From Ipomoea triloba (taxonomy: Eukaryota; Streptophyta; Magnoliopsida; Solanales; Convolvulaceae), in the NCBI RefSeq assembly GCF_003576645.1, contig NC_044917.1:5547648-5611647 (forward strand): a stretch of 64,000 nucleotides of DNA, written 5' to 3'. Positions 8,140-38,806 of this stretch are shown here, one piece after another. A program made the position numbers and the translations under genes. Below the pieces are notes generated by a model, which saw only the letters and a program-made list of their open reading frames with translations, was not told the origin of the DNA and searched no databases. Position 1 is the first letter of the stretch. Every line of letters begins with the position of its first letter.

Positions 8140-9346
8140 TTATAAAGTCTTAAATTAAAAATAAGAAAATAATATTCCTTAAAAAGATAAGTGAAAATAT
8201 ATTATAAAGTCTAAATTTATAAGTTTTATACCACACTATCATCACACACTCATAAACTATCATCTTACTCATACTACTAATTTACCACCTAATTGCTAAT
8301 AATCTTTCACCCACCGGCCACCACATTTTCTGACCTAGACATTTACTAATAAATGCCATCAAAAATTACATTTTCACCATAAAATTTCTTCCCATACAAA
8401 AGACCTAATTGAATGAGACATATCTTTAGAGTACAATGAAAGAAATAAGCTAGCAAGGAGAGGGTCGATGCCCTCTCGTATGTCTTCATGTTGACTCGAG
8501 AAGCTATTAATTTAATAAGAGAAAATATTTTTAAAAAAATTCTATGAAAAAAGAGTAAGTAGTTAAAATTTTTCTCTGATCTAATATATTCATCCATTCT
8601 TTGAAGCTTTTCACTCTTAGGGTATGTTTAGAAACTAGAAAAATGACTTCTAGAAAATGAGTCATGTTTCATAAAATATTTTCATTTTCAGTGCATTTCA
8701 AAAAGCTGTCTGGAGGTGTTTGGTATATTTTTTAAAAATGAGCAGAATTGTATAATTAAACATTTTGATTGTTTTGTTTAGAATATAACAACAATAATAA
8801 TAATATTAATTGTGATAGTGTGGTGGTTGGTGGTGGCGAAGGTGGTGTTGGTGATGATAGTGGTAGTAGTGGTGGTGTGGTGTTAATGGTGGTAGTTAGT
8901 GGTGGTGTTATTTGTTATATAATAATAATAATAATAATAATAAGTGGTGGAGTGTGGGTGGCAGTGATAGTGTACGTGATGGCGGTGGCGACGATTGTGT
9001 TCGTAGTGGTAGTGGCGGTGGTGTTGGTGGTATGGTGATAGTGTTGATGGTGTGAAAATTATAAAATGACTTTTCAAAAAAGATGGAAAGTTATGAACAG
9101 ATACTGCATTGTAACAGAGTCCGTAGATTGCACTCCCATATGAAAGGGAGTGAGTTCAAACCTCAATGAGAATATTTTTCTTTAACCAAACAATTATTTT
9201 CATTTGACTCAAAATTTTAACTATTTATCAAACACTGAAAACAAGAAACTTTAGTCATCTTTATTTCATTGCATTAATGATTGACTCTTTAAAATAAATG
9301 AAAATTTTATTCACTTTTGATCCTTAAATTTTAAAAATTAATTGAT
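8140..9346. other. Intergenic DNA with GGT-rich low-complexity block and SINE fragment
   Basis: No gene. 8815-9045 is a strongly strand-asymmetric (GGT/GTG)n block interrupted by (AAT)n. 9085-9185 carries a SINE fragment: tail-type GAACAGATACTGCATTGTAA followed by B-box-like GAGTTCAAACCTC. The Gly/Val-rich and His/Tyr-rich frames here are translations of the microsatellite. Confidence 0.6.
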
Positions 9347-9661
9347 ACTTCATCCGTCTTATTTTATGTGTCTAATTCGGTTTACGAGTCTTAATTGAAT
9401 TTGTTTTTAATTCAACTAGTGTTTTCTCCCTGCGTTGCACGAAATTAATTTTGTTATAATATTTTAAGAATATTAGGATTGATATATAATTATATAAATT
9501 ATAATATCGAATATTATATAGTATAGATTAAATATATTTCCTCAAAATTGATTTTCATTCCTTATCTTACTTTATTTATTGATATTTTTAATAGACACCA
9601 TTTAAGAATGAATATATTCTATATTTATTTGTTCCGTTTCATTAAGAAAAAAAAATTATGC

Positions 9662-9990
9662 CATTTAATGTACTTATTATTACTCTCTCTATCCCATTGT
9701 ATTTACACTTTTTTTTTAAATGCATTTTACTTGTATTATTTACCCTTCATTGTGAAAATTATTTATTTTTCTTTAACAAGAATATCAATTCGTATATACT
9801 AAAATTATTATTATTTTATATTAAATATTAGTATTCATGAATATAATTAATCAATTATTATTCACAAAATTTGCAAACAATAATATTACTAATTAGGCAA
9901 TTATATTATAGAATACCATATATAATATTACCAATTATGCTATTATGTTATTACATAATTAATATGTATTTTTTACATGGTATTATGTTA
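9662..9990. repeat. Left copy of a direct duplication inside the Helitron
   Basis: Matches 10798-11245 base for base over long stretches (CATTTAATGTA through GAATACCATA, then AATATGT through TAGAAACAATATT). The right copy is interrupted by a SINE at about 11061-11170 that is absent here, so the duplication pre-dates that insertion. The offset is about 1.14 kb. Confidence 0.85.
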
Positions 9991-10030
9991 TTACGTTAAT
10001 ATAGAAACAATATTACCAATATAGGAGTTT

Positions 10031-10135
10031 GCCTATAAATATGCCCCTCCCTCCTCATTTCTCATTTCTATTTTCTCTCTCTAACATCTCTCTACCTTCC
10101 TCCTTTTCCTATTCCATTGCCTCCGGTAAGTTTTC
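10031..10135 (+). promoter_or_regulatory. Promoter and 5'-leader-like segment carried in the Helitron
   Basis: A TATA box (CTATAAATATG) is followed by a pyrimidine-rich leader (CCTCCCTCCTCATTTC, TTTTCTCTCTCT) and an apparent splice donor (CCTCCGGTAAGTTT) with no coding frame after it. This looks like the first exon end of a plant gene captured by the Helitron. Function and origin are unknown. Confidence 0.4.
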
Positions 10136-10159
10136 TGATGATCTTTTTTTTTTTTTCCC

Positions 10160-10460
10160 TACGAATCTGGCCAACCGTCCTTGAGGTGGTTGGGCCTTGG
10201 TCGACTGCCATAGAGGCAGTCGGATCTGGATGATTGCCTCATTAGGCAGTCAGATCTGACCGATTGCCTCATGAGGCAGTCGGTCCTCGGCTCTGGCCGA
10301 CTACCATAGAGGCAGTCGGATATGCCTGACTGCCTCATTACTTTGCCCATCCGACTACCTCATTACTTTGCTCATGGGATAGTCGGATATGGCCGACTGC
10401 CTCATTAGGCAATCAGATCTGGCCGATTGCCTCATGAGTCGTGAGGCAGTCGGCTGCTTG
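10160..10460. repeat. Array of short palindromes (GACTGCCTCAT/ATGAGGCAGTC)
   Basis: Roughly seven to eight imperfect units of about 30-35 bp, each built on GAYTGCCTCATNAGGCAGTC-type dyads separated by GGATCTGGCC-like spacers. It lies inside the Helitron. The Arg/Ser/Cys-rich minus-strand frame over it is a by-product. Confidence 0.8.
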
Positions 10461-10793
10461 ACTCATTTTTTTAAGGAAAAATATATGGAGAGAATATAGG
10501 TATTGTATTGCTCAGAATTGCTAACCCCCTCCATGTATTGAGGATCTATTTATACATTTTTTGGGACTAGAGCCTTACAAGGAATAGGAATCCTGTACTA
10601 CCTCATAACTATAAACCCTAATCTTGCTAATATTATAAGTACTAAGTCTAGTCTTTATATTTAAAAAAAAAAAAAGTCTACTCGTTATCGAACTCTTTAG
10701 TAGCTCTACGCTGGTTCTCCTTCTTGGGTCTTCTCGGTCTTGTTGTTCTCTTGGGTCGGTCCATGTGGCCCAGGCCTAGTATATTATCCATCA
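10459..10793 (-). mobile_element. Possible LTR-like fragment
   Basis: On the minus strand: TGATGGATAATATACTAGG, then TATAAATAGATCC as a TATA-like box, ending AAAAAAATGAGTCA. The TG...CA termini and the promoter suggest an LTR, but no target duplication flanks it, so it is a weak call. Confidence 0.3.
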
Positions 10794-11060
10794 ACGTCAT
10801 TTAATGTATTTATTATTACACCCTCTATCCCATTGTATTTACACTTTTTTTTTAAAGAAATGCATTTTACTTGTATTATTTACTCTTCATTGTGCAAATT
10901 AATTATTTTTCTTTAACAAGATTATCAATTCGTATATACTAAAACTATTATTATTTTATATTAAATATTAGTATTTATGAATATAATTAATCAATTATTA
11001 TTCACAGAATTTGAAAACAATAATATTACTAATCAAGTAATTATATTATAGAATACCATA

Positions 11061-11170
11061 CAACCTAATGGGGTAGTTTAAGTGGTAAGTGAGCTCTCTT
11101 TGTGGGGAGGAATTCTAGGAGAACCTGGGTTCAATTCTCACAAGTGACTACATTTACCCTGTAAATTTAC
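11061..11170 (+). mobile_element. SINE-like insertion
   Basis: A-box-like GTAGTTTAAGTGGTAAG and B-box-like GGGTTCAATTCTC, about 50 bp apart. It interrupts the right copy of the Helitron-internal duplication; the left copy (9662-9990) is uninterrupted at the same point. Confidence 0.65.
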
Positions 11171-11841
11171 CAAGAAACATAATCAATATGTCTTTTTGTA
11201 CACGGTATTACGTTAATACGGTGAATATAGAAACAATATTATTAATTAATAGATATTAGTTAATTTCCATTTTACATTTTCTTACCTAAACTTTATTAAT
11301 TATTTAATTAATAAAATATTTAATTAATTGACTACAAAAATTTGGGCGTATGAGGATTTTACTTTTATATATAATATAGATATAGATTTTTCATAATATT
11401 GAGTTTACTATTATTATACAAAATTTATATATTTCAAAACTATACTAAAAGTAATATTAAAAACAAAAAATTAAATTTAAAAATAAGTAAAAACATGTTA
11501 AAGAGAATTTAAAAAAAATAAAAAGAGTTAATTTGACTAATTAATAGTAAACATAACCATGATTCCAAAAAATAAGCATAACAGATAAAATAGTACAGAG
11601 GAATATTATTTTTTAGCAACAGCTTTGAATAGTGATCCTTCTGCAGAGATTGTGGGTTTACTATTCACACATCAGTTCTGCTCATTTCAGTATCAGGCTA
11701 TATATTTTTGGATATATAGGACAACAATTGTCATTTATTGCAAGACAAAAGATGCATGCCTATGTCTCATTTTTTTGAGGTTCCCCCCCTACCCCAAAAA
11801 AAAAATAAAGACACAAGGGTTCTCACACTTCCTAGAGGCCC

Positions 11842-11847: not shown

Positions 11848-11916
11848 CCCTCTTTGTGAGTCCTCATAGTAAAACTCTATTCAGAGAGATCACACTCTGA
11901 TTTTGCAGGCCAGGTG

Positions 11917-14117
11917 ATGATGAGAATGGAGTTCTTGTGCAACTTGTTCCTTTTTTCTTTCTCAATAATCTTCTTGGTTTGTGCATGGAGAGTGGTGAAT
12001 TGGGCATGGCTTAGACCCAAGACTTTGGAGAAGTGGCTCAGGGGACAGGATCTCAAGGGTAATGCCTATAGACTCTTTTATGGGGACACAAAAGAGATTG
12101 CCAAGATGATCAATGCAACCAAATCCAAACCCATGAAAATTCTGTCAGATGAAGTAGTTCCTAGAGCAATACCATACTTCTTTGAATCCATCCAGAAACA
12201 CGGTATGCTATGCATTACAAATTTAATTATATATGTTTATAATGCTAGTTAATCGATTGGATTTCATTTTTCAGTCATGGTTTGAGTCACGTGCATTATA
12301 GTCCAGTAATATGTAAATACTGCCGGTTTTCTTTCCCTTTTTGCTTTGTAACATCTAAGTCAATCCTGAAACTGTGTTCTGCAGGTAAAAAATCCTTCGT
12401 ATGGACGGGGACAGTTCCCATGGTGATCATCACAGACTCTGATCATGTGAAAGAGGTTCTGTCTAAGCACAACACTTTCCAGAAGAATCTTGCTGATCCA
12501 ATAATAGATAAATTGGCACAAGGGCTACTGAAATATGAGAAAGATAAATGGAGCAAACACAGAAAAATAGTCAACCATGCCTTCCAATTGGAGAAGTTAA
12601 AGGTTTGATTCTTCCCCCCTCCCCATGCCTGCAAACAGTGATTATACATTCAACAAGTTCATATGTTAATTAAAAGCATATATTATTAAGACAATGACGC
12701 CAATTAGTATATATTATCTTTTCACCCTTCTTGTGTTTGATATATATATAGTAAAATGTTGAATGTATATGTTCAGACATATTGTGACCAACAGGCCTGA
12801 AGTTTGTGATTGAGTGTTTCTTGTCTTTTTCTGAAATTTCTAGTACGAGACCCATGTTCCTAACGTCTTGATCTCAATCAGCACATGGTACCAGCAATGA
12901 ACAAGATCTGTAGTGAAATGGTGGGAAGATGGGAGGAAATTGTGTCGAGGAACGAATCTGGGGAGCTGGATGTGTGGCCTGACCTTAAAACCATGACTGC
13001 TAATGTGATTTCTCTTACAGCATTCGGGATCAATTATGAAGATGGAAGAAGGGTGTTTGAACTTCAATGTGAACAAGCTGAACATGCCATGGAGCTTAGG
13101 AATTCAGTTTTTGTCCCTGGAGGGAGGTGCTTTTATCTCTTTACCATAATCTAGTTCAGAGAATTTAAACAAATCTACTGCCTTTACAACTATTTATCTT
13201 TCATGGAATGATACTGCAGATTTTTGCAAACAAAGAGGAGCAGGAGAATGGATGAAATTGATAAGGAAATCAATGCAGTAGTCGGAAGGATCATCGGGAA
13301 AAGGATCGAGGCAATGAAAGAGGGGGAGGCAAATAACAATGATTTATTGGACATGTTACTGGAATCCAACTTCAAAGAAATCAATCACCATGGAAACCAG
13401 GAATTTGGAATGACCATTGAAGAGATCATTTCAGAGTGCAAGCTGTTTTACCTGGCTGGCCAGGAGACTACTTCATCTTTACTTGTGTGGACAATGTTTC
13501 TGCTAAGTAGAAACCAAGAGTGGCAAGAACGAGCTCGAGAGGAGGTCGTGCATGTCTTTGGGGACGACAAACCAGATTTTGATGGACTAAATCGCCTGAA
13601 AATTGTGAGTACAGTGTACTACTCGATCTCCAGTCTCCAAACCTGTTTAATTTCCTCAAACTTGTCTGTCTGTTTTGCTTGATCCCAACAGGTGACAATG
13701 ATTCTGCACGAGTCTTTGAGGCTATACCCGCCAGTGGTATCCCTAATTCGAGTAGTTAAGGAAGATACTAAACTAGGAAACCTGTCTCTACCAGCAGGGG
13801 TGCTGCTCTTTGTACCAACAATCTTGCTGCAACACGACCCCGAAATATGGGGTGACGATGCAAATGAGTTCAAGCCGGAGAGATTCAGGGAAGGGGTATC
13901 CAAGGCAACAAATGGTCAAGCCTGTTTTCTACCCTTCGGCGGGGGGCCTAGAATCTGCCTTGGCCTAAACTTCACAATGGTTGAAGCAAAAATAGCACTG
14001 TCTTGCATCCTGCGACGTTTCTCCTTTCAGCTCTCTCCATCCTATGCACATGCTCCTTACATGCTTATCACTATAAAGCCTCTGTATGGTGCCCCTCTTA
14101 TTCTGCACAAGCTTTAA
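11917..14117 (+). CDS. CYP72A: CYP72A cytochrome P450, gene A
   Basis: Exons 11917-12202, 12385-12602, 12882-13126, 13220-13604 and 13692-14117 give 519 aa with every splice site GT-AG. An N-terminal hydrophobic ER anchor precedes [10 protein letters not shown]. Then come the C-helix WSKHR, the I-helix oxygen motif AGQETT (329-334), ExxR as ESLR (385-388), PERF (440-443) and the haem loop [11 protein letters not shown] with Cys467 as iron ligand. It is a full-length microsomal monooxygenase needing a P450 reductase; the CYP72 clan oxidises terpenoids and hormones, and the substrate here is unknown. Start: the first of clustered ATGs (MMRMEF); the fourth codon is also ATG. A small oddity is NHAF in place of the usual NPAF after the C-helix. 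Most similar to genes B and C downstream. Confidence 0.95.
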
Positions 14118-14224
14118 TTTCAGCATCTCTATGTTCTACTGCATTTGTTTATGAGCTAGCTCTATGTGTTACTTTTGAGATTGAAGATGAAGATTTTACT
14201 TTTATTAATAGTATAGATAGTTAA

Positions 14225-15376
14225 TCAATTATAAGATTATTAAATATTTCATCAATTTCAATTTTGGGTAATGATCCCCTAGCATATACTCCGTATATCA
14301 ATTGCTTATATTAGTTCGTGATCCCCTAGCGTCGTATAGAATTGAATAACGACTGAAAATAGAATAAGCATCCAAATACTATTGATTTCCATTCTTGTTT
14401 TCTACCATATATACGGAAATAAAAAAAAATGTAAATAAAATATGTACTCTCTATATAGAAGTTGGTCAAAATAGAAGATAATTATTACGTAATATAAATA
14501 TTGTAATATATTAGTAGATATATTCTTACCGTATGCAGTAAGTATTAAAAAAAATGACCAACTTACCATAAATATCAATTGTCGTATACATACACTTGAT
14601 AGGAAATATTCATCGAGTTTAACCTTCTTTATGGTCATTACCCTCACTTTATAGTTGGGTCGATGTAGAATGGTTCGAGTCAAATGTCCGAAAGTCAGTC
14701 AATATTTTTAGGCCTAAAGGCCATTACTAGTTAGTCTTATGAAATAAAGGGGCTTTTGGGTCCCCTCTCCAATTCTGTCGAAAAACACCCAAGGGTAAAT
14801 GGGTAATGCTCTCTGTTCTCTCTAATTGAAGAAGAATGAATAAAAGGGTTTCTTGGAGCTAAATTCTTCGATCCATTCTATACTATACACGGAGCAATTT
14901 AGTTCTATGAAATGGGGCCGTCGGTGGGGATTCCAACAAGAAGCTGTGTTCCTCTAATCGTAAAAAATCATAGAAGTATGGGGCAGAAACTTATTGGAGG
15001 GGTGTAAATGTGGGTCTGATGATGATATTTGGTGATTAGGAGATGTGGCAGTGAAGTTTGCTATGGCAGAAAGATTCTGTTGGTATAGGCCGTTTAGCAG
15101 GTGCCAGTTCTCCAAGGGCAAGGTGATCTGTAGCTTCACTATACTATCATCTTCATCATCAACTCCTCTGTCCATACTTCGCCGTCCACCCCCAACCAGC
15201 ATGCAATGGGATTATATTGGTCTGTAGTGGGTTACAAAAACAAGAAAGATGGTCAGATGGCGCAGCTCTTGGTTATGCAATGAGTGGTGGATTTGGGCGG
15301 TGCATTAAAGAAACCAAAAAATAATCTGCCCTGCTCTTTAATAACATGCATGCCAGAATGCTCTACAGGCCAGGTG
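14225..15376. other. Intergenic A-B: unrelated sequence replacing the promoter
   Basis: 14460-14570 has an inverted repeat (AAGTTGGTCA...TGACCAACTT). From about 14700 to 15360 the sequence does not match the upstream region shared by A and C. It contains AAATGGGGCCGTCGGTGGGG followed by a broken frame (MGPSVGIPTRSCVPL... with stops), resembling the leader/gag start of an LTR retroelement; this identification is tentative. The homology with gene A resumes at about 15366 (CAGGCCAGGTGATGATG). Confidence 0.5.
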
Positions 15377-16313
15377 ATGATGACAATGGAGGTCTTGTGC
15401 AACTTGTTCCTTTTTTCTTTCTCAATAATCTTCTTGGTTTGTGCATGGAGAGTGGTGAATTGGGCATGGCTTAGACCCAAGAGATTGGAGAAATGGCTCA
15501 GGGGACAGGATCTCAAGGGTAATGCCTATACACTCTTCTATGGGGACACCAAAGAGCTTGCCAAGATGATCAATCAAACCAAATCCAAACCCATGAAAAT
15601 TCTGTCAGATGATCAAGTAGTTCCTAGAGCAATACCTTACTTCTTTGAATCCATCCAGAAACACGGTATGCTATATATGCATTACAAATTTAATCATATA
15701 TATATGTTTATAATGCACACTAGTTAATCGATTGGATTCAATTTTTTAGTCCTAGTTTGACTCATGTGCATTATAGTCCAGTAATATGTAAATCCGGCCA
15801 GTTTTTTTTCCCCTTTTTGTTTGGTAACATCTAAGTCAATCCTGAAACTGTGTTCTGCAGGTAAAAAATCCTTCGTATGGCTGGGGACAGTTCCCATGGT
15901 GATCATCACAGACCCTGATCATGTGAAAGAGGTTCTGTCTAAGCACAACACTTTCCAGAGGAATCTTGCTGATCCAGTAATAGATAAATTGGCACAAGGG
16001 CTACTGAAATATGAGACAGATAAATGGAGTAAACACAGAAAAATAGTCAACCCTGCCTTCCAATTGGAGAAGTTAAAGGTTTGATTCTTCCCCCCTCCCC
16101 ATGCCTGCAAACAGTGATTATACATTCAACAAGTTCATATGTTAATTAAAAACATATATTATTAAGACAATGACACCAATTAGTATATATTATCTTTTCA
16201 CCTTTCTTGTGTTTGATATTTATATAGTAAAATGTTGAATGTATATGTTCAGACATGTTTACGGGAAACATAAATAATATTTTAGTCCTGAAGATTGTGA
16301 TCGATTGTTTCTT

Positions 16314-16345
<32 letters not shown>

Positions 16346-17318
16346 NNNNNNNNNNNNNNNNNNNNNNNNNNNNNNNNNNNNNNNNNNNNNNNNNNNNNNN
16401 NNNNNNNNNNNNNNNNNNNNNNNNNNNNNNNNNNNNNNNNNNNNNNNNNNNNNNNNNNNNNNNNNNNNNNNNNNNNNNNNNNNNNNNNNNNNNNNNNNNN
16501 NNNNNNNNNNNNNNNNNNNNNNNNNNNNNNNNNNNNNNNNNNNNNNNNNNNNNNNNNNNNNNNNNNNNNNNNNNNNNNNNNNNNNNNNNNNNNNNNNNNN
16601 NNNNNNNNNNNNNNNNNNNNNNNNNNNNNNNNNNNNNNNNNNNNNNNNNNNNNNNNNNNNNNNNNNNNNNNNNNNNNNNNNNNNNNNNNNNNNNNNNNNN
16701 NNNNNNNNNNNNNNNNNNNNNNNNNNNNNNNNNNNNNNNNNNNNNNNNNNNNNNNNNNNNNNNNNNNNNNNNNNNNNNNNNNNNNNNNNNNNNNNNNNNN
16801 NNNNNNNNNNNNNNNNNNNNNNNNNNNNNNNNNNNNNNNNNNNNNNNNNNNNNNNNNNNNNNNNNNNNNNNNNNNNNNNNNNNNNNNNNNNNNNNNNNNN
16901 NNNNNNNNNNNNNNNNNNNNNNNNNNNNNNNNNNNNNNNNNNNNNNNNNNNNNNNNNNNNNNNNNNNNNNNNNNNNNNNNNNNNNNNNNNNNNNNNNNNN
17001 NNNNNNNNNNNNNNNNNNNNNNNNNNNNNNNNNNNNNNNNNNNNNNNNNNNNNNNNNNNNNNNNNNNNNNNNNNNNNNNNNNNNNNNNNNNNNNNNNNNN
17101 NNNNNNNNNNNNNNNNNNNNNNNNNNNNNNNNNNNNNNNNNNNNNNNNNNNNNNNNNNNNNNNNNNNNNNNNNNNNNNNNNNNNNNNNNNNNNNNNNNNN
17201 NNNNNNNNNNNNNNNNNNNNNNNNNNNNNNNNNNNNNNNNNNNNNNNNNNNNNNNNNNNNNNNNNNNNNNNNNNNNNNNNNNNNNNNNNNNNNNNNNNNN
17301 NNNNNNNNNNNNNNNNNN

Positions 17319-17384
<66 letters not shown>

Positions 17385-18662
17385 CTGAAATTTCTAGTAC
17401 AAGACCTGTGTTCCTAACATCTTGATCTCAATCAGCACATGGTACCAGCTATGAACAAGATCTGTAGTGAAATGGTGGGAAGATGGGAGGAAATTGTGTC
17501 GAGGAACGAATCTGGCGAGCTGGATGTGTGGCCTGAGCTTCAAACCATGGCTGCTAATGTGATTTCTCTTACAGCATTCGGCATCAATTATGAAGACGGA
17601 AGAAGGGTGTTTGAACTTCAAAGTGAACAAGCTGAGCATGCCATGGAGCTTAGGCATTCAGTTTATGTCCCTGGAGGGAGGTGTTTTATCTTTTTTACCA
17701 TAATCTAGTTCAAAGAATTTAATCAAATCTATTGCCTTTACAACTATTTATCTTTCATGGAATGATACTGCAGATTTTTGCCAACAAAGAGGAACAGGAG
17801 AATGAATGAAATTGATAAGGAAATCAATGCAGTAGTCAGAAGGATCGTCGAGAAAAGGATCGAGGCAGTGAAAGAGGGGGAGGCAAATAACAATGATTTA
17901 TTGGACATGTTACTGGATTCAAACTTCAAAGAAATCAAGCACCATGGAAACCAGGCATTTGGAATGACCATTGAAGAGATCATTTCAGAGTGCAAGCTGT
18001 TTTACCTGGCTGGCCAGGAGACTAGTTCAGCTTTACTTGTGTGGACAATGGTTCTGCTAAGTAGAAACCAAGAGTGGCAAGAACGAGCTCGAGAGGAGGT
18101 TGTGCATGTCTTTGGGGACGACGAACCAGATTTTGATGGACTAAATCGCCTGAAAATTGTGAGTACTACTACTCGATCTCCAGTCTCCAAACCTGTCTCC
18201 TCAAACATGTGTGTCTGTTTTGCTTGATCCCAACAGGTGACCATGATTCTGCACGAGTCTTTGAGGCTATACCCGCCAGTGGCAACACTAATCCGAATAG
18301 TCAAGGAAGAGGCTAAACTAGGAAACCTGTCTCTGCCAGCAGGGGTGCTGCTCCTAGTACCAACAATATTGCTGCACCACGACCCCGAAATGTGGGGTGA
18401 AGATGCAAATGAGTTCAAGCCGGAGAGATTCAGGGAAGGGGTATCCAAGGCAACAAATGGTCAAGCCTGTTTTCTACCCTTCGGCGGGGGGCCTAGAATC
18501 TGCATTGGCCTAAACTTCACAATGGTTGAAGCAAAAATAGCACTGTCTTGCATCCTGCGACGTTTCTCCTTCAAGCTCTCTCCATCCTATGCACATGCTC
18601 CTTACATGCTTCTCACTATAAAGCCTCTGTATGGTGCCCCTCTTATTCTGCACAAGCTTTAA
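15377..18662 (+). CDS. CYP72A: CYP72A cytochrome P450, gene B
   Basis: Exons 15377-15665, 15861-16078, 17436-17680, 17774-18158 and 18237-18662 encode 520 aa. One codon is added relative to A in exon 1 (SDDQVVPRA). Motifs: AGQETS (330-335), ESLR, PERF and the haem loop [11 protein letters not shown] with Cys468. Intron 2 contains a 973-bp N gap (16346-17318) bounded by T-runs, so its true length is unknown, but all exons are complete. Upstream, an in-frame ATG at 15284 would add 31 residues (MVDLGGALKK...); I favour 15377 because A and C start there and the extra segment is non-hydrophobic. The gene lacks the promoter block common to A and C, so it may be expressed differently or be silent. 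Confidence 0.92.
16346..17318. other. Assembly gap (973 N) in intron 2 of gene B
   Basis: An N run between long T homopolymers. The two long open frames that cross it are artefacts of translating T-runs and N. Confidence 0.98.
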
Positions 18663-19157
18663 TTTCAGCATTGCCAGCAAGCAGCATCTCTATGTTCTAC
18701 TGCATTTATTTATGAGCTAGCTCTGTGTGTTACTTTTGAGATTGAATGGCAGTGCTTGTATCATATAAAATATATCAAATAATAAATGAGTACCCTCATT
18801 TAACTGCTTAAATTTTTAATTGTGGGTTTATTATTCACTATTGGCAATTTCTCACTATAACATTGATGTTTGATTTCTTACCTAAATTGATGGCATTGCA
18901 TTTAGATTTAGAATTCTTGATGGGGCACACCAGTTCTGCTAATTTCAGTATCAGGCTACTTTTTCCAGTTTTACTTAATAATTTTTGGATATATAGTACA
19001 ACAATTCTGGTTTATTACAGAACAAAAGATGCTTGCCAATATCCACTCTCTCTGATAAAGACACAAGGGTTAGTTCTGACACTTCCTAGAGGCCCCATAT
19101 ACCCACCCTCTTTGTATTGATGATATTCAGAGAGATCACACTGTGATTGTGCAGGTG
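18663..19157 (+). other. Intergenic B-C with gene C promoter
   Basis: 3' flank of B, then a block shared with the gene A upstream region and with a reversed relic at 34640-34805 (GTGGGTTTATTATTCAC, AACATTGATGTTTGATTTCT). The C core promoter is CCCCATATACCC (about 19096-19102), a C-for-T change from A's CTATATAC that weakens the TATA consensus. Confidence 0.55.
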
Positions 19158-21238
19158 ATGATGAGAATGGAGGTCTTCTGCTACTTGTTCCTTTTTTCTT
19201 TCTCAATAATCTTCTTGATATGTGCATGGAGAGTGGTGAATTGGGCATGGCTTAGACCCAAAACTTTGGAGAAATGGCTCAGGGGACAGGATCTCAAGAG
19301 TAATGCCTATAGACTTTTCTATGGGGACATAAAAGAGCTTGCCAAGATGAGGAATGAAACCAAGTCCAAACCCATGAAAGTTCTTTCAGATGAAGTAGTT
19401 CCTAGAGCAATACCTTACTTCTTTGAATCCATCCAGAAACACGGTACGCTACACCCTAGAAATTTAATTATATATGTTTATAATGCCATGGTGAGGCTAT
19501 ACTTCTTATAATTATTGGTTTGACTCACGTGCATTATAGTCCAGTAATATGTAAATCCGGCCAGTTTTCTTTCCCTTTTTGCTTTGTAACATCTAAGTCA
19601 ATCCTGAAACTGTGTTCTGCAGGTAAAAATTCCTTCGTATGGCTGGGGACAATTCCCATGGTGATCATCACAGACCCTGATCATGTGAAAGAGGTTCTGT
19701 CTAAGCACGACACTTTTCAGCAGAATCTTACTGATCCAGTAGTGTATAAATTGTCACAAGGGCTACTGAAATATGAGGCAGATAAATGGAGTAAACACAG
19801 AAAAATAGTTATTCCTGCCTTCCAATTGGAGAAGTTAAAGGTTTGATTCTTCCCCCCCTCCCCATGCCTGCAAACAATGATTATATGTTAGAAGTATATA
19901 TTATTAAGGCAATGGCACTAATTTGTATATACTGTCTTTTCTGAAATTTCTTGTATGAGACCCATGTTCCTAACATCTTGATCTCAATCAGCACATGGTA
20001 CCAGCAATGAACAAGATCTGTAGTGAAATGGTGGGAAGATGGGAGGAAATTGTGTCGAGGAACGAATCTGGGGAGCTGGATGTGTGGCCTGACCTTAAAA
20101 CCATGACTGCTAATGTGATTTCTCTTGCAGCATTCGGGATCAATTATGAAGACGGAAGAAGGGTGTTTGAACTTCAATGTGAACAAGCTGAAGATGCCAT
20201 GGAGCTTAGGAATTCAGTTTATGTCCCTGGAGGGAGGTGCTTTTTATCTCTTTACCATAATCTAGTTCAAAGAATTTAAACAAATCTACTGCCTTTACAA
20301 CTATTTATCTTTCATGGAATGATACTGCAGATTTTTGCCAACAAAGAGGAACAGGAGAGTGAATGAAATTGATAAGGAAATCAATGCAGTAGTCAGAAGG
20401 ATCATCGAGAAAAGGATCAAGGCAATGAAAGAGGGGGAGGCAAATAACAATGATTTATTGGACATGTTACTGGAATCCAACTTCAAAGAAATCAAGCACC
20501 ACGGAAACCAGGAATTCGGAATTACCATTGAAGAGATCATTTCAGAGTGCAAGCTGTTTTACCTGGCTGGCCAGGTGACTACTTCAGCTTTACTTGTGTG
20601 GACAATGGTTCTGCTAAGTAGAAACCAAGAGTGGCAAGAACGAGCTCGAGAGGAGGTTGTGCATGTCTTTGGGGACGACAAACCAGATTTTGATGGACTA
20701 AATCGCCTGAAAATTGTAAGTACTACTACTCGTTCTCCAGTCTACAAACCTATAACCCACAGACAAATTTGTTTCCTCAAACATGTGTGTCTGTTTTTCT
20801 TGACCCCAACAGGTGACAATGATTCTGCACGAGTCTTTGAGGCTATACCCGCCAGCACCATCAATAACCCGAATAGTCAAGCAAGATGCTAAACTAGGAA
20901 ACTTGTCTCTTCCAGCAGGAGTGTTGCTCCTAGTACCAATAATCCTGCTGCACCACGACCGCGAAATATGGGGTGACGATGCGAATGAGTTCAAGCCGGA
21001 GAGATTCAGGGAAGGGGTATCTAAGGCAACAAATGGTCGAGCCTGTTATTTACCCTTCAGTGGGGGGCCTAGAATCTGCATTGGCCTAAACTTCGCAATG
21101 GTTGAAGCAAAAATAGCACTGTCTTGCATCCTGCGACGTTTCTCCTTCAAGCTCTCTCCATCCTATGCACATGCTCCTTACACGGTTGCGACTATCCAGC
21201 CTCTGTATGGTGCCCCTCTTATTCTGCAGAATCTTTAA
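19158..21238 (+). CDS. CYP72A: CYP72A cytochrome P450, gene C (altered I-helix)
   Basis: Exons 19158-19443, 19623-19840, 19992-20236, 20331-20715 and 20813-21238 encode 519 aa with intact GT-AG splicing. ESLR, PERF and the haem loop ([11 protein letters not shown], Cys467) are present. The I-helix motif reads AGQVTT instead of AGQETT: codon 332 is GTG where every other copy has an acidic codon. That acid belongs to the (A/G)Gx(D/E)T(T/S) oxygen-activation motif, so catalysis may be reduced or uncoupled (inference). The second haem-loop residue is Ser instead of Gly, which the consensus tolerates. Closest to A and B; the frame is otherwise undamaged. Confidence 0.93.
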
Positions 21239-21424
21239 TTTCAGCATTGCCAGCACCATCTTTATGTTCTACTGCGTTTATGAGCTGTGTTACTTTTGAG
21301 ATTCAATGGCAGTGTTTGTATCAAATAAAATGTACTCCGTATCAAATAATAAATGAGCACCCTCAGCTCAGTTAAGTGCTTAAATTTTTTACTCTGATTC
21401 TCCAATTATATAAAATCTAATATT

Positions 21425-30930: not shown

Positions 30931-31960
30931 AATTCAATTATTAAACAATAACATTTTTAATTATTGTTATTATGCCAGTCTATGTAGCATGAAAATCGAC
31001 AGGGAAATGATAATTTTAGAAAACGACGCGTTTGACATGACAATAACAACTCAAACATTAAACAAATAAACAATAACGTAACATTTTTAATTATTGTTAT
31101 CATGCCAGCCTATGTAGCATGAAAATCGACAGGGAAATGATAATTTTAGAAAACGACGCATTTGACATGGCAATAACAACTCAAACATTAAGACAAATAA
31201 ACAATAACATTTTTAATTATTGTTATTATGCCAGCCTATGTAGCATGAAAATTGACAGGGAAATTATAATTTTAGAAAACGACGCGTTTGACATGGTAAT
31301 AACAACTCAAACATTAAACAAATAAACAATAGCATTTTTAATTATTGTTATTATACCAGCCTATGTAGCATGAAAATCGACGAAATGATAATTTTAGAAA
31401 ACCGACGCGTTTGACATGCCAATAACAACTCAAACATGAAACAAATAAACAATAACATTTTTAATTATTGTCATTATGCCAGCCGTAGCATGAAAATCGA
31501 CAGGGAAATGATAATTTTAGAAAACGACGCATTTGACATGGCAATAACAACTCAAATATTAAACAAATAAACAATAACATTTTTAATTATTGTTATTATG
31601 CCAACCTATGTAGCATGAAAATCAACAGGGAAATGATAATTTTAGAAAACGACGTGCTTGACATGGTAATAACAACTCAAACATTAAACAAATAAACAAT
31701 AGCAATTTTAATTATTGTTATTATACCAGCCTATGTAGCATGAAAATCGATAGGAAAATGATAATTTTAGAAAAACGACGCATTGGACATGCCAATAACA
31801 ACTCAATCATTAAACAAATAAACAATAGCATTTTTAATTATTGTTATTATACTAGCCTATTTAGCATGAAAATCGACAGGGAAATTATAATTTTAAAAAA
31901 CAACGCGTTTGACATGACAATGACAACTCAATCATTAAACAACAACATTTTAAATTATAT
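30930..31960. repeat. Minisatellite, about 125-bp unit, eight copies
   Basis: TAGCATGAAAATCGAC recurs at 30985, 31115, 31241, 31366, 31486, 31611, 31736 and 31862 (spacing 120-130). Each unit includes the dyad AATAACATTTTTAATTATTG and the block AAAACGACGCGTTTGACATG. Short plus-strand frames of 68-94 codons over it are repeat by-products. Confidence 0.95.
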
Positions 31961-37203: not shown

Positions 37204-38806
37204 ATCCTAGAATTAATGGAGTTCTGTTTAGCTTTGTGCCTTCTTTAATGTCTGTCTGTGTGTACAGCTATATATAATTATTCCCTTCTTGTCATCCACA
37301 AGTACTGCCACAGTGCCCCACACAAATCAAATTTTAATTGCATTATAGAACAGTTGGAAGATCTAATTGACCTTATTTCAATTTTATATTAACTATAATT
37401 ATTTTTATATAACTAATGTGTAATTCTACCTATACTAAAATTCTATATTCTCATTTTTCTACTCCCTAATACTCCCTCGTCCCATTTTATGTGTCTGGTT
37501 CGGTTAACGACGTTTGACTGAAATTATTATTATTATTTTTTAATGACTGAAATTATTTTTAATTCAATTTTTCTTAATATTAAGTTTAGTATTAATATAT
37601 AAAATTTATATATATAGAAACTACACTAAAAGTACTATTAAACACAAAAAATCAAATTTAAAAACAAGTAAAAAATAATAAAGAAAATAAACAAATAAGA
37701 AAGAGTTTTTGACTCATATGAATAGTAAATATGACAGATAAAATGAGACAGAGGGAGTATATGACATGCTTTTGATTGCTTAATATAAGGGGGCCATAAT
37801 TTTATCAATTACTTTTTTTTTTCCTCTAATAAACTTTGAATGTACAGAGTAAAAGTTGGGAATAAATTTTTGGAATCCAAATAATATTTTTGAATTAATT
37901 TATAATAAAAATGATTAATTCATACAAAAGATCAATCATGTCAACAAATACTTTCTTTCTTTTTTTTCTTTTTTTTTTGGGTCCTCCTAATGTTGTCGTG
38001 GATAATAATTGCTTGGTACACTAAGTCAATATGTCACTATCTAGTAGGTGGGAATTGGGAAACATGCATGGGAGTACTCGTCCACGGTACACTCGATGTA
38101 ATAATAATTCGTTCATCGATTATTCAAATTTTATGACTTTAATCTCCAATTTTTTAATTTACTTAATTTCATCCTTAATTATATAATTTTTTACCTAAAT
38201 TAATCTTTTGACTACATCAAAATAATCCTAAGCAAGTTGACAAGACAATATAAAAGAAAAATAATTTTGATATTTTTTTCTTGAATTAAGAATAATGTTG
38301 TAATATTGCAATCAAATCATATCAAAAGTATTCTAAAATATTACATGCATTCAACATGAATGAGTATTATATATACTGAAAGCATCTTCTAACATAAACT
38401 AACCCCAGCAAACATATTATTTTTCCAAGATGTTTTTGTACTCATTCATTGACTATTTATTTTTTAAAGAATAAATAAATAAATCCCAAAAGAAAATACA
38501 AAATGTACTTGTCGCACATGATGTATGTACGAGACTATCGATGCCCAATAGCTTCGCCAATTAACTTTAGCTCTTGTTCGAAGAAAGTTACGTGCGAAAA
38601 TAAAGGCATCGACGTAACTCTCCTATTTTATTAGCCATTTAATAGTTTTGACTTTTATTTCCTAATAAATTCATTAATATTTTTGAACATAGAATTGTAC
38701 ATTAAAATATGTTGAACATACTAACATCCCGACTTTAGCCCGTGGACAACTAAAGCCCGTGTGTTTTTTCTGTTGAGGGGTAGAAACAAATGGGCTAAAA
38801 CACATT
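37204..38806. other. Intergenic D-E, AT-rich with an intact MITE
   Basis: Promoter of D at the left, then the Stowaway-like MITE (37472-37757) and unremarkable AT-rich DNA. No gene. Confidence 0.5.
37472..37757. mobile_element. Intact Stowaway-like MITE, 286 bp
   Basis: Termini CTCCCTCGTCCCATTTTATG and CATTT...complementary AAAATGAGACAGAGGGAG, with TA at both edges (37470-37471 and 37758-37759), as for Tc1/mariner elements. It is the uninterrupted counterpart of 9349-11603 and supplies the Helitron's empty site (ATTCAA/TTTTTC, junction 37567/37568). Confidence 0.88.

Follow-up and report, generated by a model that had tools for sequence, protein, structure and literature searches.

Positions 9416 to 11386 of the window, by which we mean the whole 64,000-nucleotide stretch of the Ipomoea triloba genome analyzed here (contig NC_044917.1, positions 5,547,648 to 5,611,647), almost certainly constitute a minus-strand, non-autonomous Helitron that entered a Stowaway-like MITE between A and T with no duplication of the target (Table 1). 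A first-pass annotation had read the segment as a Helitron, and that reading is supported by the agreement, at the level of sequence, of the ends, the A^T site, the lack of a target duplication, the hairpin of the family, the copy number and matches to the Rep domain. The observation on which it is built, that of a MITE split into two halves, is confirmed.

Table 1. Positions in the window of the Helitron, its internal parts and the MITE copies used to delimit it
Feature	Position	Strand	Remarks
Left half of the target Stowaway-like MITE	9348-9415	+	Preceded by TA at 9346-9347
Non-autonomous Helitron (assignment almost certain), 1971 bp	9416-11386	-	5' TC at 11386, 3' CTAG at 9416
Helitron 3' terminus, CTAG	9416-9419	-	Read directly; family termini
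Subterminal hairpin of the 3' side, degraded here, 13 bases from the end	9429-9442	-	One stem base missing
AT-rich internal unit, first copy (tandem in relatives)	9662-10020	-	Matches 10798-11060 over 263 bp (93%), with a further 65 bp at 88%
Foreign stretch, GC-rich array of short repeats	10022-10473		452 bp; no other place and no genomic source found among 40 scored candidates
LTR-like fragment	10474-10793	-	Minus strand begins TGATGG; 39 other places, 75-79%
Second unit copy, reaching the 5' end, split by the SINE-like insert	10798-11386	-	Self-match; arrays in the family
SINE-like insert, about 116 bp	11061-11176	+	Not in the first unit copy
Helitron 5' terminus, TC	11385-11386	-	T next on the plus strand
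Right half of the target Stowaway-like MITE	11387-11603	+	Followed by TA at 11604-11605
Intact MITE of the same family, paralogous empty site	37472-37757	+	TA at 37470-37471 and 37758-37759

It had been claimed that the two half-MITEs join to give the sequence of the intact MITE at 37472-37757, and this was borne out. In a BLAST comparison of the joined flanks, joined positions 48-238 aligned through the junction to 37548-37735 in one alignment (83.5%, E 2e-51), in which the proposed junction ATTCAA/TTTTTC was exact. By itself the left half matches 37478-37532 (E 1.5e-6) and the right half 37568-37735 (E 2e-43). Global alignment of the joined MITE with the intact copy gave 217 identities, 36 mismatches and 65 gap positions; about 29 of the latter are extra bases in the intact copy, which lie near 37512-37544 and are not present in the 258-base copies of the MITE. 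The right half in turn holds about 25 bases, near 11558-11582, that are absent from the other aligned copies. The coordinates first given for the right half hold, while the left half begins at 9348 and not at 9349. What had been described as an exact empty site in the window is indeed an intact MITE of the same family, but it is paralogous, has diverged from the split MITE by about 14-17% and does not fix the boundary alone.

As a control, random joins with the same spacing were made in the window, leaving out those less than 300 bases from the true join, and in none of 3000 did both halves match adjacent places elsewhere in the window; the gap permitted between such places (35 bases at most) was chosen in the knowledge that the true halves sit about 29 bases apart on the intact copy. 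When the count was widened to any HSP passing the junction by 10 bases, 57 of 3000 random joins qualified. Among the 40 of these that were listed, 14 start in a duplicated stretch at 50-56 kb and two are close to the true join (9417/11389 and 9411/11383). This junction-overrun version was judged too lax, and the two-halves control was used after it.

Genome searches with the intact MITE (37472-37757) revealed at least 47 matches, with 40 of 3392 candidates scored. Apart from the window's own copy, which has 286 bases, the near full-length matches comprise 25 of 251-261 bases and one of 291 bases, and 20 of these 26 places were taken with 30-base flanks for scoring of the boundary. Most of the 20 start with CTCCCTC, end with GAGGGAG and adjoin TA, the left edge of one copy (L094) showing no visible TA. 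Flanking TA together with CTCCCTC...GAGGGAG ends are the marks of Stowaway elements, which belong to the Tc1/mariner group. The target element is short (about 258 bp), has terminal inverted repeats and is present in many copies; it is like Stowaway MITEs in flanks, ends, length and abundance, and no difference from them was seen.

The boundary of the insertion was determined by scoring every join of a left position from 9395 to 9435 with a right position from 11366 to 11407 against each of the 20 further MITE copies. Summed over these copies, the optimum is a tie between 9414/11386 and 9415/11387. Exactly this two-way tie was obtained with 18 of the 20; another (L083) gave a four-way tie that includes the same pair, and the last (L084), in which the T run is one base shorter, favours 9415/11388. 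The exact 12-mer ATTCAATTTTTC occurs in 6 of the 20 copies, and the rest differ nearby by about one base. The tie of one base arises because A9415 equals A11386, so that the two are interchangeable, and between the tied ends 9416-11386 is picked by the rule that Helitrons run from TC to CTAG and lie between A and T. The extent originally proposed for the Helitron is thus upheld, with its last base resting on the rules for termini, since the alignments leave one base undecided at the ends. The absence of a target duplication likewise stands: given the shared A, no base is lost or doubled in the best join in 18 of the 20 comparisons. The statement that the boundary can be read directly is true to within one base, and it needs more copies of the MITE than the single one within the window.

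Placement of the boundary from 37472-37757 alone was rejected. With lenient gap costs this copy slightly prefers a wrong join, 9409/11359, over the right one (138.8 vs 137.5) because of its approximately 29 extra bases, and its placement of the boundary hence depends on the scoring. Scoring of fixed lengths against the same copy placed 9416/11388 first (70 vs 61 for 9415/11387), a result that was judged to be out of register, as the lengths were forced.

On its own strand the element starts with TCTATATC and finishes with ACACTAG, and the 5' TC and 3' CTAG assigned to the minus strand by the first-pass annotation were read at both ends, with A and T as the flanking bases. The element accordingly shows a 5' TC and a 3' CTRR, insertion between A and T (with the ambiguity of one base), no target site duplication and copies elsewhere with the same ends. 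The hairpin that Helitrons have some 10-13 bp before their 3' end is present in the family, at 13 bases, and is imperfect in the window copy, where it is weak (-1.4 kcal/mol); the missing stem base suggests, rather than demonstrates, that this copy is now inactive. No stop-to-stop open reading frame of 120 amino acids or more is found within 9416-11386.

The genome searched for further copies comprises 462 Mb in 17 sequences. With the 3' end, 40 matches were obtained from 1346 candidates, and 31 of the 40 fall in loci that were read. The 44 loci compared contain 43 distinct matches to the 3' end. CTAG is kept in 34 of them, counting the one in the window, and every one of the 34 follows an A; in the window as background, A precedes CTAG in 39 of 134 cases. 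The 34 ends are not all independent, since one flank is common to three loci (L003-L005) and L026 contributes four ends that form two duplicated pairs. Of the nine matches without CTAG, six are inner matches of partial length, and the other three are ends altered or cut in their first bases. Genome-wide, the exact family pattern follows a base other than A at 2 places, both times G. Two places on C13 (22300469 and 22317633) have TCAG instead of CTAG.

Seventeen distinct 3' ends have in common a six-pair hairpin located 13 bases from the end. In it 94.1% of the cells are paired, vs 13.7-51.5% in slid versions, and two of the six pairs have changes on both sides. Shuffles reached the observed value in 16 of 500 cases for the percentage paired, in 6 of 500 for the covariation score and in 65 of 500 for the doubly changed pairs, for which reason the covariation of the hairpin is modest.

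The search with the 5' end gave 41 matches, again including the window's own, and 20 of the 39 others were read and judged by eye. Seven of these have one common continuation and three another, one (L106) looks internal and one (L096) lacks GA|T. The remaining eight have flanks that are not so shared and T as the next base after GA, two of them (L100 and L104) running into TTA repeats. As the position of the end was chosen by eye within TATAGAT repeats, the T following it is partly built in and lends weak support. In one locus (L002) both ends are apparently present, with A and T outside. Elsewhere in the window, 33 bases at 14187-14219, directly after a piece of a P450 gene, are 88% like the 5' end of the Helitron and are perhaps a relic of another Helitron.

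The inner part of the element is repetitive, 9662-9920 and 10798-11060 being 93% alike. In other members of the family the equivalent of 9511-10021 together with the 5' end is repeated head to tail behind a 3' end, with starts mostly about 570-750 bases apart. Several such copies of the 5' unit are found in each of seven loci (L059-L063, L067 and L068), and the joints between units, located behind the 3' end, are of the type ...GATATAGA followed immediately by TTAAATAT. Each head-to-tail 5' unit with a TC-like end could conceivably serve as another starting point for transposition, in which case the copy in the window would be a two-unit member; we regard this as unlikely. If it were true, the block of repeats would be a by-product of skipping of start sites during rolling-circle transposition and not of ordinary slippage.

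Matches to the LTR-like fragment at 10474-10793 include three same-strand pairs 2.2-3.9 kb apart, as expected for LTRs. In one locus (L072) a tandem array adjoins the LTR-like repeat and matches its last 57 or so bases at a spacing of 106 bases. The insert at 11061-11176 is called SINE-like for its tRNA-type A and B boxes; it has a 47-bp match at C15:5300681-5300727. The foreign pieces may have been captured by the Helitron or may have entered it as insertions.

If membership in the family is a guide, the Rep/helicase of an autonomous Helitron would have mobilised 9416-11386 in trans by a transfer of the rolling-circle type. Duplication of the AT-rich unit would then have enlarged the inner part of the element, the LTR-like fragment and the 452 bp of foreign DNA would have come to lie between the unit copies, and the SINE-like element would have been inserted later. 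Helpers may be at hand, since the genome contains at least 154 matches to Helitron_like_N (PF14214; 513 candidates, of which 150 were scored), and an open frame of over 1000 amino acids is reported for at least 22 of the listed matches; the same domain gave matches in none of 14 control genomes. The earlier claim that the mechanism, too, is read directly from the sequence was too strong, as we infer the rolling-circle mode from family membership.

Since the empty-site comparison cannot tell A9415 from A11386, the alignments would also accommodate an element of another class, having either a 1-bp target duplication (A) with ends at 9416-11385 or ends at 9415-11385. However, the two termini are not linked by any inverted repeat of at least 16 bases, and the set of TC, CTAG and hairpin, together with the 34 of 34 CTAG ends that follow A, belongs to Helitrons, which makes such an element very improbable. 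Smaller still is the likelihood that the intact MITE at 37472 is a restored site from which a Helitron was lost by precise excision. Putative Helitron excisions are reported for the rice element Mothra in PMC4683698, yet none of the 20 MITE copies read holds anything at the site, and consequently nothing needs excision.

Equally slight is the prospect that the half-MITEs are unrelated fragments, brought to the sides of a mosaic by rearrangement or by chance. Repeats do make up a mosaic in this region, as such an origin would have it, but the two halves complement each other without loss or doubling of a base (given the shared A), TA is present on both outer sides, and none of the 3000 random joins of the two-halves control behaved in this way. 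A Helitron inserted into a MITE is thus the preferred reading.

According to PMC4683698, Mothra (DHH_Mothra) is a non-autonomous Helitron with 5' TC, 3' CTAG and a hairpin 13 bp from the 3' end. It has a consensus of 1993 bp and goes in between A and T, leaving no target duplication. Its AT-rich block of direct repeats varies in number between copies, with extra sequence between or within the blocks and a presumed captured gene fragment. The window Helitron is like this description in its ends, hairpin distance, insertion site, similar size, variable AT-rich repeats and presumed captured piece. It differs in host and sequence, the likeness being judged by described features, and in the unit of its family, which is longer (with the spacing of starts given above) and reaches the 5' end.

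Canonical Helitrons, as PMC4067079 describes them, have 5' TC, 3' CTRR, a palindrome near the 3' end, an A/T site and no TSD, and paralogous empty sites are a published means of confirming their boundaries. The window element shares all five features, whereas this copy has a damaged palindrome and no open reading frame of the length stated above. Among the papers listed by a literature search, judged by their titles and the openings of their abstracts, none described a closer case of a Helitron with captured LTR or SINE pieces. The window Helitron is an ordinary case of a well-known event. The fixing of its boundaries by paralogous empty sites in a high-copy MITE is tidy and checkable, and the element could aid a repeat library for this genome, leaving knowledge of Helitrons unchanged.

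Elsewhere in the window, Pfam searches of five open reading frames identified a piece of a Ras-type GTPase, two cytochrome P450 pieces, a DYW-type PPR protein and a trehalose-phosphate synthase, and Rfam gave no match across the window at gathering scores. Series of P450-like open reading frames, of which the two pieces just mentioned are confirmed by Pfam, extend over 11860-21240 on the plus strand and 35074-62413 on the minus strand. An N gap between T runs is located near 16346-17318, and a 125-base unit forms a tandem array of 8 copies at 30942-31942.
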